Positions 10,067 through 25,496 of a stretch of 64,000 bases of DNA are shown piece by piece (position 1 is the first letter of the stretch; each line of letters opens with the position of its first letter). Source of the stretch: Candidatus Gastranaerophilales bacterium (GTDB lineage: Bacteria > Cyanobacteriota > Vampirovibrionia > Gastranaerophilales > Gastranaerophilaceae); assembly GCA_944325515.1 (NCBI GenBank), contig CALVAO010000002.1, forward strand, positions 85,091 through 149,090. The letters are read 5' to 3'. Both the position numbers and the translations under genes were made by a program. The notes under the pieces were generated by a model. It was not told where the DNA came from. It saw nothing but the letters and a program-made list of their open reading frames with translations, and searched no databases.

Positions 10067-10120
10067 AGGTGACTAAGTGACTAAGTGACTGAGTGACTGA
10101 GTGATTAAGTAAATAAGTTA
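10067..10120. repeat. GTGACTRA octamer tandem repeat (solo copy)
   Basis: AGGTGACTAA followed by about six further degenerate 8-bp units (GTGACTAA, GTGACTGA, GTGATTAA, GTAAATAA). The same units make the 33-bp inverted ends of the element inside groESL (20568-20600 and 20955-20987). Here there is one array, with no matching inverted copy and no four-helix-bundle gene. The rest of 9931-10275 shows nothing I can assign, except a possible decayed GTGACAG/CTGTGAG stretch near 10133-10155. Confidence 0.8.
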
Positions 10121-18883: not shown

Positions 18884-20536
<1,653 letters not shown>

Positions 20537-20567: not shown

Positions 20568-20600
20568 AGGTGACTAAGTGATTAAGTGACTGAGTGACTA
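20568..20600 (+). repeat. Left 33-bp inverted repeat (GTGACTRA octamers)
   Basis: Perfect reverse complement of 20955-20987. It contains the TAG stop codon of the four-helix-bundle gene (20598-20600). Related array at 10067-10120. Confidence 0.95.
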
Positions 20601-20945
20601 TGATTTCTGGTTTAAATACTTCTTTAAACCGCTGATTAATGCTGAAACTGTATTTATATCATTATATAGACTTGTTTGTTTTATATAATTCAATCTTTCA
20701 GCAATTATTAACTGAGTTTCTAATTCGGCAAGAGAACCCAGAGCAATATCAATAAATCTTGCATTTTCTTTGTCAGAACCCCTTGCACAACCTTCCGCAA
20801 TGTTAGAAGGAACAGAAACCGCAGCCCTTCTTATTTGATTTGTTAAACCATATTTTTCTTCTTGCGGAAAATTTTTTGTTTCACAATATACCTTCATAAC
20901 TAATTCAATAGATTTTTTCCATGCTTCTAAATCTTTATGGTACAT
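20598..20945 (-). CDS. Four-helix-bundle protein (S23 / 23S rRNA intervening-sequence protein family)
   Basis: 115 residues. The family pattern is clear: a W near the start (LEAWKKSIELVMKVY), FPQEEKYGLTNQIRRAAVS, VPSNIAEGCARGS and a final helix pair (LGSLAELETQLIIAERLNY). These proteins form five-fold four-helix bundles; they are found inside 23S rRNA intervening sequences, beside diversity-generating retroelements (as Avd) and scattered alone in genomes. Their molecular role is largely unknown. AGAGGA is just before the ATG. The gene fills the space between two 33-bp inverted repeats between groES and groEL, so it would be transcribed with the chaperonins. Confidence 0.93.
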   Translation of the reverse strand: MYHKDLEAWKKSIELVMKVYCETKNFPQEEKYGLTNQIRRAAVSVPSNIAEGCARGSDKENARFIDIALGSLAELETQLIIAERLNYIKQTSLYNDINTVSALISGLKKYLNQKS

Positions 20946-20954
20946 AAATCCTCT

Positions 20955-20987
20955 TAGTCACTCAGTCACTTAATCACTTAGTCACCT
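20955..20987 (-). repeat. Right 33-bp inverted repeat
   Basis: Perfect reverse complement of 20568-20600. It lies 5 bp from the groES stop codon and ends just before the Shine-Dalgarno of the four-helix-bundle gene. Confidence 0.95.
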
Positions 20988-20992
20988 ATATG

Positions 20993-21280
20993 TTATTCTA
21001 CAATCGCCAACGCGTCTTTAATGGAAAGAATCTTATATTCAACTCCGTCCATCTTAATATCAGTACCGGCGTATTTAGCGTAAAGAATGATATCTCCGAC
21101 TTTAACGTCCATAGGTTCTCTTTCGCCGTTTTCTCCGACTTTTCCTTCGCCTACAGCTACTACTTCACCTTTTTGTGGTTTTTCTTTAGCGCTGTCCGGA
21201 ATAAAAATTCCGCCGGAAGTTTGTTCTGTATCTTCAATAACTTTGATAACAATTCTGTCTTGCAATGGTTTTAATGCCAT
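20993..21280 (-). CDS. groES: Co-chaperonin GroES (Cpn10)
   Basis: 95 residues; the lid of the GroEL chamber. [20 protein letters not shown] contains the mobile-loop region, and [20 protein letters not shown] is the conserved core. AGGAGG stands 7 nt before the ATG. It is the first gene of the operon; the element with the four-helix-bundle gene follows 5 bp after its stop. The 120 bp upstream are almost pure A/T, with TATAAAT/TATAAT boxes but no CIRCE. Confidence 0.98.
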
Positions 21281-21402
21281 AATAATATCCTCCTATCTTC
21301 TACAATTATATTTATACTCCAGATTTTAAAAATAATTAAAAAAGTTAAGAAAAAATTAATTATTTATTAAAACAGAGTATAAAATATAAATCCGATTTTT
21401 GT

Positions 21403-22182
21403 TTAATATATTTTTGAAAACGAAAGAAAAAATTCTGAAATTACATTAATCAACATTGGCAGAATCCATATCATAATTGCAGCACCAAAAACCGGCTTGA
21501 ACAAGAAACTCAGCTGGAATACGTTTACCTGCGGTGCTGTTTTGGAAATTACACCCAGAATAATATCCTGTCCTAATGTTGCCAGAAGAATTGGAGATGC
21601 TATCTGTAAGCCCATATATAAAACATTGGAGGTTGTTGTAACAAGATAATCTATATTTATTATTTTTTCAAGCGGAATACTGACAGCATACAACGGGAAA
21701 ATCTCAAAACTTCTCATAAGTGCATTAATCATCCAGTAAAAACCACCGAGTTCTATAAAGATTAAAATCCCGAGCAGAGTAATAATACGGCTTAATATTG
21801 ATGTCTGGCTGTTTGTTGTAGGATCCATTACCATTGCAGAGGATAAACCCATCTGTGTATTAATCATATCACCGCCGGCTTCTATTGCAAGTATAAGCAA
21901 CTGTGCAATATAGCCGATGATTGCACCAACTGCAAAATTCAACAATAAAAGCAGTAAAGGAGAGATGTCAGACGGCGGAATTGCCGGTTTTAAAAGCGGA
22001 GTAATCATTATTGTTAAGATAAAAACAAGTGCAAGCTTTACCAGACCGGCGATTTCTCTCCTGTTAAAAATCGGAGCAAATCTAATAAACCCTAAAAGGC
22101 GTGCAAAAACAATAAACCCTGCAGAAAACCAGCGGTCAAATTCCGGAAACATTATTGAAATTTGTGTTATCAACTGTTCCAT
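21403..22182 (-). CDS. fliR: Flagellar biosynthesis protein FliR
   Basis: 259 residues with about six membrane segments, a component of the flagellar type III export gate with FliP and FliQ. FDRWFSAGFIVFARLLGFIRFAP is the typical first helix, followed by FNRREIAGLVKLALVF, and the middle carries EAGGDMINTQMGLSSAMVMDP, a conserved FliR signature (first 20 residues or fewer quoted in parts elsewhere). It is the last gene of the fliM/N-fliO-fliP-fliQ-X-fliR run, with the small secreted protein gene 9 bp before it. Confidence 0.95.
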   Translation of the reverse strand: MEQLITQISIMFPEFDRWFSAGFIVFARLLGFIRFAPIFNRREIAGLVKLALVFILTIMITPLLKPAIPPSDISPLLLLLLNFAVGAIIGYIAQLLILAIEAGGDMINTQMGLSSAMVMDPTTNSQTSILSRIITLLGILIFIELGGFYWMINALMRSFEIFPLYAVSIPLEKIINIDYLVTTTSNVLYMGLQIASPILLATLGQDIILGVISKTAPQVNVFQLSFLFKPVFGAAIMIWILPMLINVISEFFLSFSKIY

Positions 22183-22191
22183 AACTATTCC

Positions 22192-22566
22192 TTACTCTTT
22201 ACTGATTTCCGGCGGAATATCAAGTTCATATTCATAAATATTAGGCGGATTATCAAGACTCATAATATCAAAACCTTCTACATCTTCTATAAAAGTGTTT
22301 GAAGGTGTTACTTTTACTTTAAAAACAACTTTTTCTTTTCCGTTTTTTAGAATAGAAAAACTTGTTTCACCTTCTTTTAAAGGGTGAACTATTAAAGTAT
22401 TTTTTTCATTCATTACTGTTATGAGAGGATAAACATCGATAATATCATTTTTTTCAATACTGATATCAGAAAGCCTTCCATTCGATGAAATAATACAATC
22501 TTCCATTGCATGTACTGTTTGAATGGATAATGAAATTATTAAAAGTATTAAAAATTTTTTTATCAA
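22192..22566 (-). CDS. Small secreted protein with pilus/secretin N-domain-like fold
   Basis: 124 residues. A signal peptide (MIKKFLILLIISLSIQTVHA) is followed by about 80 residues that fit the pattern of the T2SS/T3SS pilus-formation N-terminal domain: GRLSDISIEKNDIIDVYPL, then NTLIVHPLKEGETSFSI and KVVFKVKVTP. Such domains sit at the N-terminus of secretins; here the domain stands alone. The start is TTG with AAGGA 7 nt before it. It lies between fliQ and fliR on the same strand, so it may be a periplasmic part of this flagellum. The domain call is by pattern, not alignment. Confidence 0.6.
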   Translation of the reverse strand: MIKKFLILLIISLSIQTVHAMEDCIISSNGRLSDISIEKNDIIDVYPLITVMNEKNTLIVHPLKEGETSFSILKNGKEKVVFKVKVTPSNTFIEDVEGFDIMSLDNPPNIYEYELDIPPEISKE

Positions 22567-22642
22567 ATTTATTTCCTTTTTTAAATTTTATAAAGAATTA
22601 ACGGTTAATGTATATCGTTTGTTATTTACAAATCGTTAATTC

Positions 22643-23131
22643 CTACCTTCCTAACATCTTATTAATCTCAACGAAGTTGCCTTTTGGCATTGGCGCTCTT
22701 GGTGCAGTATCATACTTAATTTTTTGTGCTTTATCTATATATGGTACCTTACCAGGATTTTTCATTATTTCATTAACCGTAGGAGCATCTTTAAATGAAT
22801 CTTTCATCTCTCCTTCAAAAGGTGTTGTGTATTTATAATAATCTGCCGGAAGTACAAAAGCATCATTTTTAGGAACGGTGTTAAATGCAAGTGCCGCACC
22901 TTCTGTAAAAAGATTTGTCAAAAGTTTAATAAATCCCATACCGCCAATAATTATTACAAGAAACACTGCAAAAATCTTAGGAGCAGCCGCAATTGTTTGT
23001 TCTTGAACCTGCGTAACAGCTTGAATAATACCTACTACCAGACCGATTGCAGCAGCAACAAGTACACATGGCATAGATATTGATAACATTACCATAAAAC
23101 CTTTTGCTAAATATTCAGTTAACATTTCCAT
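22643..23131 (-). CDS. fliQ: Flagellar biosynthesis protein FliQ with C-terminal extension
   Basis: The first 88 residues are FliQ, with two membrane helices (MVMLSISMPCVLVAAAIGLV and IFAVFLVIIIGGMGFIKLL) and the conserved GIIQAVTQVQEQTIAAAPKI between them. FliQ normally ends near residue 90; this protein continues to 162 with a polar, Pro- and Lys-rich tail (DAFVLPADYYKYTTPFEGEM). GAGGAAAC precedes the ATG. fliP is upstream (122 bp gap). The tail is in frame with no sign of a frameshift. FliQ is part of the export-gate ring in the inner membrane. Confidence 0.93.
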   Translation of the reverse strand: MEMLTEYLAKGFMVMLSISMPCVLVAAAIGLVVGIIQAVTQVQEQTIAAAPKIFAVFLVIIIGGMGFIKLLTNLFTEGAALAFNTVPKNDAFVLPADYYKYTTPFEGEMKDSFKDAPTVNEIMKNPGKVPYIDKAQKIKYDTAPRAPMPKGNFVEINKMLGR

Positions 23132-23221
23132 AGTTTGTTTCCTCTTGGTGATTCGGGTTTGAGTGAAGTTTTAAGTGTCATTATAGATTATTTTTAATCG
23201 ATTTATATTATTTTTACGTTC

Positions 23222-23253
23222 CCTTCGCATTTCACTCTTCACGCTTCACTCTT
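23222..23253. repeat. Short degenerate TTCACTCTT repeats between fliP and fliQ
   Basis: TTCACTCTTCACGCTTCACTCTT lies directly after the fliP stop on the plus-strand reading, with a matching GAGTGAAG at 23160-23167. It looks like a decayed short tandem array, of a different unit from the GTGACTRA one. No function visible. Confidence 0.4.
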
Positions 23254-23892
23254 TTAATTATAACTTTGCACCAACCCTTGAACAATTAATGCCCAGCCGT
23301 CAACAGCTATAAATATAAGCAGCTTAAACGGCAGTGAAATAATTGTCGGTGATAACATAAACATACCGAGTGCCAGTAATATGTTTGCAACAATAAGGTC
23401 TAATACAATAAATGGTACAAATACTACAAAACCGATTTCAAAAGCCGTTTTAAGCTCACTTAATATAAATGCCGGTGCAACTTCCCATATTGTAATATCT
23501 TCCGGTGATTTTGGAGGTGTTTTATGTTTTAGTTCCACAAAAAACGCCAAATCAGTTTCCCGTGTTTGTTTCATCATAAATTCTTTTAACGGTTTGGACC
23601 CTTCATCTATTGCCGCAATAAGGTTTTGATTTTTCTGATACGGTATTGAGCCTCTTTCATACATTTGTTGAAAAACTCCGCCCATTGTATAAAAGGTTAA
23701 AATCATACAAAGACCTATCGTTACGATTGCAGGCGGTACTTGAACACCCATTGCTGTTTTTAGAAGTGAAAATACTATTGTGAATCTTAAAAAACATGTC
23801 ATGCAGCAAAAAACGAACGGTAAAAGCGAAAATAACGTCATTACCGTAAGCATTTGTAAAACAGGGTTCATATCTTGTATAACTGAGTCCAT
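23254..23892 (-). CDS. fliP: Flagellar biosynthesis protein FliP
   Basis: 212 residues, core of the export gate. Conserved segments: FVFCCMTCFLRFTIVFSLLK, GVQVPPAIVTIGL, ILSELKTAFEIGFVVFVPF and SPTIISLPFKLLIF. It lacks the cleavable signal peptide of enterobacterial FliP and is shorter than the usual 245 residues, starting almost at the first membrane helix. Its ATG is 3 nt after the fliO stop, with the Shine-Dalgarno AAAGGA inside fliO, so translation is coupled. Confidence 0.96.
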   Translation of the reverse strand: MDSVIQDMNPVLQMLTVMTLFSLLPFVFCCMTCFLRFTIVFSLLKTAMGVQVPPAIVTIGLCMILTFYTMGGVFQQMYERGSIPYQKNQNLIAAIDEGSKPLKEFMMKQTRETDLAFFVELKHKTPPKSPEDITIWEVAPAFILSELKTAFEIGFVVFVPFIVLDLIVANILLALGMFMLSPTIISLPFKLLIFIAVDGWALIVQGLVQSYN

Positions 23893-23895
23893 AAT

Positions 23896-24366
23896 TTATA
23901 ATCCTTTTTGACTTAGAGGTCTGACTGTTATATTTGAATCTGTGGTTGAAACATTCATTTTGTTTATCAGATTTCTCATCACAGAAGAATGACTATTAGA
24001 ATGAAGCATGCTTGTTTTAATTCCTATATTACTTCTATCCATATAATCAGTTTTTATATCGGGCGGAATATTATTGATTTTAGGCAAAGCTTCCATTGTT
24101 TCTTTAAAACTCATGGTTTCATGAGTTTCTAATTTAGAAATTAAAGTCGTTTTATCTACATCACCTGCAATAAGAAATTTTTCTTGTCCTGTAGAAACTA
24201 TATAAAGAGTTTTTCTTGGCGCAAGTGACATTGAATCTATTACTTTTAAATATTTAGATTGTTTGCCAAGCCCTGCAGATGTTGTATTTTTAAACACTAA
24301 AAGTGCTACAACAATTACGCCGACCATTGCAAGTGTATATACCATAAAGTTTGCTAAATATCCCAT
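23896..24366 (-). CDS. fliO: FliO-like flagellar export assembly protein
   Basis: 156 residues: one N-terminal membrane helix (LANFMVYTLAMVGVIVVALL) then a cytoplasmic part with MSLAPRKTLYIVSTGQEKFL, the usual FliO pattern (LxxRRxLxLVxxGxxxxLIG). FliO helps FliP assemble. The position directly before fliP, with a 3-nt gap, confirms the call. The C-terminal 60 residues are polar and poorly conserved. Confidence 0.88.
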   Translation of the reverse strand: MGYLANFMVYTLAMVGVIVVALLVFKNTTSAGLGKQSKYLKVIDSMSLAPRKTLYIVSTGQEKFLIAGDVDKTTLISKLETHETMSFKETMEALPKINNIPPDIKTDYMDRSNIGIKTSMLHSNSHSSVMRNLINKMNVSTTDSNITVRPLSQKGL

Positions 24367-24404
24367 ATTCTATCCTCTTAATAATTTATAGTACGAAGTC
24401 AACG

Positions 24405-25496
24405 TTATTTATTTTCTACTTCAAAGTCGCTATAATCAAAGTCTTCACCTTCCTGTACGACCTCCGCTTCCTCTGCCGGAACATGTTGAGAAGGCTCGTC
24501 TGCCTGTGAAGCAGAATCATTAACTTTTTCTATTCTCACGCCGAATCTGTCATTGATAATAACCAGTTCACCGGCAGCTACAATTTTACCGCCGACTTTT
24601 AGAGAAACTTTATTATCATAGACTGAACATAAATCTACGATTAAACCCTCTTCAATGCTTTTGAGTTCCCCAAGCGTAACTTTTACTTTATCAAATTCAG
24701 CCGCCATTTCGACTTGAATACTATCCCATAAATTAGTATTTGTATTTTCTTCCATACCGTTTCCTCCGCCAGTATCATATGGTTCTATAATCTTAATATT
24801 AGGTTTTATCTGAAATTTTTGTACAATATTTTCGCACATTAGGGTCATTTCTGAAGAATTACTGTTTTCAAAAACAACAATATCGCCGGCATCGAGTTTT
24901 TTAATCTCTGCAACAGGGAAGGTTGTTGTGCCTAAAAGCAGATTAACTTCCACAAGACTGTCTGCAAAATCCTTATCCTCAAATCTTACTGTATCAAGTT
25001 TTATGTCCTGCGGAGAGAGAATATCTTTTGGCACAGAAATTATAAATTTTGCTGCTGTATCAGAAATTTCCGATTTTACAAAATAGGTTAAATGCAAAAT
25101 TTCGTTGTATCTTCTATGCGGTTCAATATTAAAATTCGGGGCAAGAGATTCATACAAAAAGTCATTAAATGCAGTTATAATCCGTGCTTCCAGCTCTGTA
25201 ACTTCTGTCAAATCAAATCTTCTGTTATTTTTTCCTAAAACTTTATCAAGTATGACATTAATTGCTTCTTGTGAAATTCGTATATAAACATCATTTTTAG
25301 CATTGATTTTCACTTTTGTAACAAAAAAAGTTTCGTTTTGAGAAAGCACATTCATATTTGTACTGATTGATGCGAGCTTGTATTCAAAACCATCAAAAAA
25401 GAATTCACTGCTGCAATTTTTGACAACAGGTGTAAACACGGAATCATACCATGCAAACTGTTTATATAATTCATCAAAAAACACGGAATTCATCAT
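24405..25496 (-). CDS. Two-SpoA-domain flagellar C-ring protein (FliM/FliN-like)
   Basis: 363 residues. Residues 1-170 contain a segment (TELEARIITAFNDFLYESL) like the middle domain of FliM/FliY. Two SpoA (SurfaceAg presentation) domains follow: one near 180-240 (GTTTFPVAEIKKLDAGDIVV) and one near 258-325 (VKVTLGELKSIEEGLIVDL, GELVIINDRFGVRIEKV), then an acidic tail. The second is FliN-like. No separate fliM or fliN is seen in the window, so this may combine both, as FliY or the SctQ proteins of injectisomes do. It is the first gene of the export-gate operon. No CheY-binding N-terminal motif LSQxEIDALL is visible. Confidence 0.8.
   Translation of the reverse strand: MMNSVFFDELYKQFAWYDSVFTPVVKNCSSEFFFDGFEYKLASISTNMNVLSQNETFFVTKVKINAKNDVYIRISQEAINVILDKVLGKNNRRFDLTEVTELEARIITAFNDFLYESLAPNFNIEPHRRYNEILHLTYFVKSEISDTAAKFIISVPKDILSPQDIKLDTVRFEDKDFADSLVEVNLLLGTTTFPVAEIKKLDAGDIVVFENSNSSEMTLMCENIVQKFQIKPNIKIIEPYDTGGGNGMEENTNTNLWDSIQVEMAAEFDKVKVTLGELKSIEEGLIVDLCSVYDNKVSLKVGGKIVAAGELVIINDRFGVRIEKVNDSASQADEPSQHVPAEEAEVVQEGEDFDYSDFEVENK

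Follow-up and report, generated by a model that had tools for sequence, protein, structure and literature searches.

The window analysed here is a 64,000-nucleotide stretch of a Candidatus Gastranaerophilales genome (G000 in our set; contig CALVAO010000002.1, assembly GCA_944325515.1), which carries on its minus strand a groESL operon with a small S23/IVP gene, enclosed by inverted repeats, between groES and groEL. Its features are the following, in window coordinates:

20993-21280, minus strand: groES, the upstream neighbour (open reading frame and tblastn against relatives)
20955-20987, minus strand: 5' arm in the sense of the gene, four GTGAYTRA octamers, an exact inverted repeat of the 3' arm
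20950-20953, minus strand: GAGG, a Shine-Dalgarno-like motif located after the 5' arm and before the start codon of S23 (read from the sequence)
20598-20945, minus strand: S23/IVP four-helix-bundle gene, 115 amino acids (PF05635, TIGR02436; relatives 2gsc and 2rld)
20568-20600, minus strand: 3' arm, with the S23 stop codon in its inner end
18884-20533, minus strand: groEL, the downstream neighbour (open reading frame and tblastn against relatives)
10069-10108, plus strand: five GTGAYTRA octamers forming a solitary array; no inverted partner was seen in its vicinity

Read along the minus strand, groES is followed after 5 bp by the first arm, then by S23, the second arm and, after 34 bp, the groEL start codon. 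The initial annotation had described an S23/IVP gene inside groESL with exact 33-bp inverted ends, its stop codon lying within one of them and its first arm 5 bp from groES; all of this is borne out (stop codon at 20598-20600), and only its distance of 35 bp to groEL had to be corrected by one base. The arms agree at 33 of 33 positions by direct comparison (an inverted-repeat search returned 36 nt at 97%), each consisting of four octamers plus one base, and the whole element measures 420 bp. S23 is the sole gene between the arms, and no transposase gene is found there. This locus (L001) has no Rfam match, and no known RNA family was found in the five loci of this genome that were scanned. Genes of the FliP, FliQ and FliR flagellar export families immediately precede groESL in the same direction (window 21281-25496). 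S23 occurs once more in this genome, as a partial copy (about 58 amino acids; G000:C10, L002 1504-1677) whose imperfect inverted ends are of another type.

In profile searches the S23 protein was assigned to PF05635 with E=2e-39 and to TIGR02436 with E=8.6e-38, and it gave no match to the Y1 transposase family; to our knowledge no catalytic domain has been recognised in S23. Genes of this family occur in many phyla and have no known function. The solved relatives 2gsc and 2rld comprise five chains each, and a Xanthomonas relative is described as a homopentamer in PMC4990558. The gene is under purifying selection (median dN/dS 0.23, all below 0.39 in 78 pairs), and the Shine-Dalgarno-like motif is present in 19 of the 27 S23 copies examined in the genus.

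The predicted RNA fold of the region, at -129.7 kcal/mol where shuffled sequences average -85.4 (z -8.0), contains the entire arm duplex in both the minimum-energy and the centroid structure. In the groESL mRNA the arms are thus predicted to pair and to loop out S23, so that groES and groEL could still be read; the stem could be a substrate of RNase III, like that of the intervening sequences in 23S rRNA. Within an operon the pairing would make the insert harmless, an effect that cleavage has in rRNA. The strength of this predicted duplex, and the finding that the arms pair in 27 of 27 genus copies scored (27 of 31 loci, the broken or partial L002, L057, L058 and L060 being omitted; L058 lacks arms, with a score of 9), would also suit a processing switch, kept because cutting alters the groES:groEL ratio. 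We regard such a switch as very improbable: 31 of the 55 genomes with groES manage without S23 in the gap, the arms have been exchanged for those of other classes, and the same plan recurs at unrelated genes in other phyla.

groES was detected in 55 of 65 genus genomes, and S23 lies in the groES-groEL gap of 24 of these (broken in G051, decayed in G059) and is absent from that of the other 31. The relatives therefore do not all carry the gene in the same place without empty sites, which had been named beforehand as the pattern that would speak against mobility; and the proposal that the element moves gains from the gaps themselves, since 26 of the 32 S23-less gaps read (two from G047) are only 11-42 bp long. 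The remaining six (61-204 bp) are occupied by other sequence. By eye, the gap of G029 holds a hairpin with GGCAATAA-like arms, and in G006 the gap, 61 bp long, is similar in sequence to the ends of the G030 arms; together with the decayed copy in G059, the G006 gap suggests loss in place. In G023 (L079) and G056 (L090) the gap holds inserts (112 and 124 bp) that contain palindromic stretches and, by eye, no arrays of 7- or 8-mers, so that the site accepts several kinds of insert. The 65 genomes are mostly drafts that break at repeats. Ten of them have no groES match, and S23 is likewise unmatched in nine of the ten, among which G038, G045 and G057 are array-rich. Copies of S23 with arms also lie outside groESL in G008, G027 and G002. 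Reading its flanks by eye places the G008 copy between fliP and fliQ, and its GTGARCAG-type arm units recur elsewhere in the same genome among the matches listed. A target duplication at the groES-groEL site, which the initial annotation had envisaged, was not found in 23 groESL elements compared with a cross-element control (longest shared flank words of 5.5 nt within elements and 5.2 across them), a test weakened by the AT-rich flanks.

Six classes of groESL arm were distinguished by eye, with labels set once the data had been seen: A (GTGAYTRA), B (GTGANTA), C (GTGARGN), D (GTTAATAA), E (GTGAATC-like) and F (GTGAYCA). Mapped onto a groEL tree with 54 rows (without G026, G023 and the genomes lacking a groES match), the presence of S23 requires 9 changes, 6 of them forced by supported branches, and arm class requires 11 among 23 carriers. 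The S23 tree comprises 29 genes, including the copies outside groESL but neither the fragment L002 nor the decayed copy of G059; on it, 9 changes suffice for 10 arm groups, the minimum possible. B, C, D, E and Y each occupy one side of a branch, support being modest for B and E, and classes A and F need two changes each. From the contrast between the two trees it follows that gene and arms travel together and apart from the host, and the independence of the cassette from host genes is well supported.

We also compared element and flanks in 11 pairs of genomes, chosen rather than drawn. In five the element is closer than the flanks: G048/G041 (2/461 differences in the element, 75/1628 in the flanks), G044/G039 (0/464, 45/1619), G051/G063 (3/489, 54/1628), G052/G036 (7/454, 115/1628) and G032/G033 (18/465, 131/1628). 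In five others the element has been swapped and the flanks are the closer part: G043/G063 (149/478, 61/1628), G050/G063 (154/478, 86/1628), G032/G046 (150/454, 81/1628), G046 and the present genome (176/457, 127/1628), and G035/G062 (147/454, 149/1628). One pair, G062/G044, shows neither pattern (17/464, 57/1628; p 0.89). In three pairs the blocks of low divergence coincide with the groES-groEL gap. In G052/G036 an identical tract extends from 300 bp upstream of groES into its first 200 bp, and this tract is ordinary recombination; spread among relatives at the same gap thus proceeds at least partly by homologous recombination via the conserved flanks (one clear case). This same pair (L039/L040) agrees almost completely in its S23 genes and 3' arms and differs at several bases of the 5' arm, so that one arm changes faster.

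The G052/G036 tract could also be taken as a sign that S23 has long been an optional groESL gene, with alleles that pass between genomes by homologous recombination only, the arms being an RNA structure and not transposon ends. The occupation of the same gap in 24 genomes, the purifying selection on S23 and the missing target duplication are all compatible with such a history. We nevertheless judge it unlikely, given the armed S23 copies elsewhere in G008, G027 and G002, the coincidence of low-divergence blocks with the gap in three pairs, the multi-copy gene-less elements with similar arms, and the finding that 0 of the best 80 (of at least 581) loci beyond the genus lie beside groESL.

The arm repeat is dispersed through this genome, where the 14-base pattern GTGAYTRAGTGAYT has 49 matches and its reversed control none, which excludes chance. 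Among these matches are seven inverted pairs of about 130-165 bp that contain no gene. The spacers of four of them (C2a, C2b, C2c and C12b) are 85-98% identical over 57-86 nt, that of C12a has about 20 nt in common with these, and those of C7 and C11 gave no match. Five pairs (C2a, C2b, C2c, C12a and C12b; L100 2540-4425, L096 1993-3095) adjoin flagellar hook and basal-body genes, their neighbours being two FlgE/F/G-like genes and genes for an FlgA-like protein, FlgH, a rod-binding protein, FlgI and FlgN. In relatives, the gaps that correspond to C2b and C2c hold octamer elements in G042 and G037, class B elements in G032 and class C elements in G035; the C2c gap is array-free and 10-45 bp long in G034, G040, G041, G048 and G053. 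At the C2a, C12a and C12b gaps the relatives are more mixed, with octamers at the C2a gap of G035 and remnants or nothing at the C12b gap of G042 and G037. G037 has class B arms on its S23 gene, yet its flagellar elements are of the octamer type. In 40 stretches of G035 and G036 we counted 57 class C array sites, of which 11 are inverted pairs and 46 seemingly solitary, the latter being an upper bound because only class C units were paired; 9 of the 11 gene-less paired elements lie between co-directional genes, as compared with 83 of 114 gene pairs. The idea that the gene-less elements are deletion derivatives of the S23 cassette was dropped, since their spacers gave only two 13-nt matches (E 0.009).

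Among genomes of at least 95% completeness, generic arrays number 1-511 (median 95) in the 15 with S23 and 0-78 (median 2) in the 14 without (p 4e-5); all array counts in this paragraph include the arms of the S23 cassettes themselves. The generic patterns are poorly controlled, because arrays of the same kind are also picked up by the reversed pattern (17 matches in this genome against 44 of the octamer), and the test was therefore redone with the class patterns, whose controls gave 0 matches in every genome for A, up to 7 for B and up to 4 for C; the medians are then 66 and 0 (p 8e-5). At least 15 generic matches are found in 23 of 26 rows with S23 and in 4 of 27 without it (p 5e-8; 53 rows with groEL read). 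Arrays of a genome's own class are enriched relative to other S23 genomes (p 0.03 for A, 0.0006 for B, 0.0003 for C), with cut-offs of 12, 12 and 6 that were set after the counts had been seen. Six phylogenetically independent pairs gave about 4.0 in the same direction for array load, 0.1 in the opposite one and 1.9 without difference; for class match (cut-offs 12, 15 and 6, likewise set after the counts) the pairs agreeing were 2.5 of 3 for A, 2.6 of 4 for B and 2.6 of 3 for C, with none opposite. The independent pairs are too few for either corrected test to reach significance. Several array classes coexist in many genomes, and G040, S23-negative at 96% completeness, is array-rich.

Array-rich genomes without an S23 match, such as G040 and also G038, G045 and G057, would be expected if the cassettes were passengers, moved along with anything bearing such arms by a transposase encoded elsewhere in the genome, with S23 as mere cargo. 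That S23 has no known catalytic domain, and that the gene-less elements are common and have interiors unlike the S23 cassette, fits this explanation as well. We consider it doubtful all the same, because array load tracks the presence of S23, arm class follows the S23 gene tree, and S23 with matched arms recurs in many phyla, which is unexpected of random cargo. Our preferred reading, to which we give a probability of roughly 55%, is that the cassette has been gained, lost and swapped independently of the host, is likely mobile, and encodes an S23 protein that would be specific for arms of its own type.

Beyond the genus, a scan of named species genomes yielded at least 581 S23-encoding stretches, of which the best 80 were analysed; the counts in this paragraph refer to those best 80. 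Matched inverted arms (score of at least 12) are present at 43 of the 80 loci, against 12 of 800 cross-locus pairings, and the remaining 37 have no matched arms at this score. Tandem structure was found in 77 of the 160 flanks, with a period of 7 in 62, of 8 in 12 and of 9 in 3, and after shuffling no flank passes; the period-7 flanks have a median of 4.6 units. At the 43 arm-matched loci the 5' arm is purine-rich in 36 cases and pyrimidine-rich in 4. None of the 80 loci matched rRNA, and none had groES or groEL in its flanks up to 3 kb. The groESL setting emphasised by the initial annotation is real in this genome and too narrow as a general description: with 0 of 80 outside loci near groESL and the G008 gene between fliP and fliQ, groESL is one niche only. 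Co-direction with neighbours (62 of 73, baseline 65 of 88; p 0.06) was dropped as a sign of insertion at the RNA level.

The likeness to S23-type 23S rRNA intervening sequences that had been proposed for this element stands, as does its non-ribosomal setting: an S23/IVP gene and stem-forming complementary ends are present, and the location is the gap between groES and groEL and not an rRNA gene. According to PMC4990558, the Coxiella burnetii intervening sequence has 428 bp (420 here), with S23 enclosed by complementary ends that form a 28-bp stem (33 bp here), carries tandem heptamers (GACAGAT) directly upstream of S23, and was excised by RNase III in vitro; its S23 was judged by those authors to be probably not made. 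The present element differs from that description in lying in a protein-coding operon instead of 23S rRNA, in having octamers instead of heptamers, and in an S23 gene that is under purifying selection, with a Shine-Dalgarno-like motif inside the loop. The operon and rRNA versions share the gene, the plan and, in part, the repeat period, and the cassette is probably a non-ribosomal relative of the 23S rRNA insertions.

Other families of repeats resemble it in part. With REPIN/RAYT systems (PMC3116915) the likeness lies in short, gene-less inverted repeats dispersed between genes, in a repeat specific to the genome and in the presence of only one candidate protein, and the seven gene-less pairs here are indeed multi-copy paired inverted repeats with a short spacer; the differences are that S23 is no Y1 transposase, that the arms are tandem arrays of 7- or 8-mers, and that the S23 gene bears the same arms. 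A MITE of an insertion sequence is a multi-copy gene-less element whose ends are common to a gene-bearing one. The gene-less elements here likewise share their ends with the gene-bearing S23 cassette; in contrast to insertion sequences and MITEs, neither a target duplication at the groESL site nor a transposase gene between the arms was found. Cyanobacterial STRR sequences are dispersed, short, tandemly repeated heptamers, and as far as this general description goes the dispersed tandem repeats are alike; we know of no S23 gene or inverted pairing in STRR. Among the papers listed from the open-access PMC literature we recognised no description of S23 genes with tandem-repeat arms outside rRNA.

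The Avd protein of diversity-generating retroelements belongs to a homologous four-helix-bundle family (PMC10053308), and the profiles of bAvd (E 6e-4) and of DGR Avd (E 2e-4) match S23 weakly, so that S23 might work like Avd with a reverse transcriptase. Such a retroelement-like system is the least probable of the explanations weighed here: no reverse transcriptase (PF00078) match exists in this 99.7% complete genome, which led us to reject that enzyme as a partner; only 15 of 65 genus genomes have such a match; the array-rich G042, G044, G048 and G052 have none; and co-direction does not exceed its baseline.

Returning to a mobile cassette that recognises its own arms, we read the data as a family of such cassettes living in protein-coding operons and infer that S23 itself acts on the arms. 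The S23 ring would bind four to five tandem arm units and so bring the ends together, and it would move its own cassette and, in trans, the gene-less copies; unit-by-unit binding is suggested by a ring-shaped protein beside a fairly constant number of 7- or 8-base repeats. More tentatively, the S23/IVP proteins might be what confers mobility on a kind of bacterial transposable element that has not been described before, with a pentameric ring that takes one 7- or 8-mer unit per subunit and moves the cassette together with swarms of gene-less hairpins. Such elements would favour operons that are conserved and highly expressed, and the S23-bearing rRNA intervening sequences would be one niche of the class. 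If this is a mobile family with genome-specific tandem-repeat arms, the origin of the intervening sequences and the role of S23 become directly testable; the swarms of GTGA-type tandem hairpins in operon gaps would be accounted for, and transposon-like behaviour could be attached to a protein family without a recognised nuclease.

Two further loci from the wider scan deserve mention: L152, one of the best 80 of at least 581 outside loci, comes from a genome that is itself named Gastranaerophilales, and in a Gemmataceae assembly an S23 gene has a match to a group II intron at a distance of about 2 kb (L178 3637-3736).
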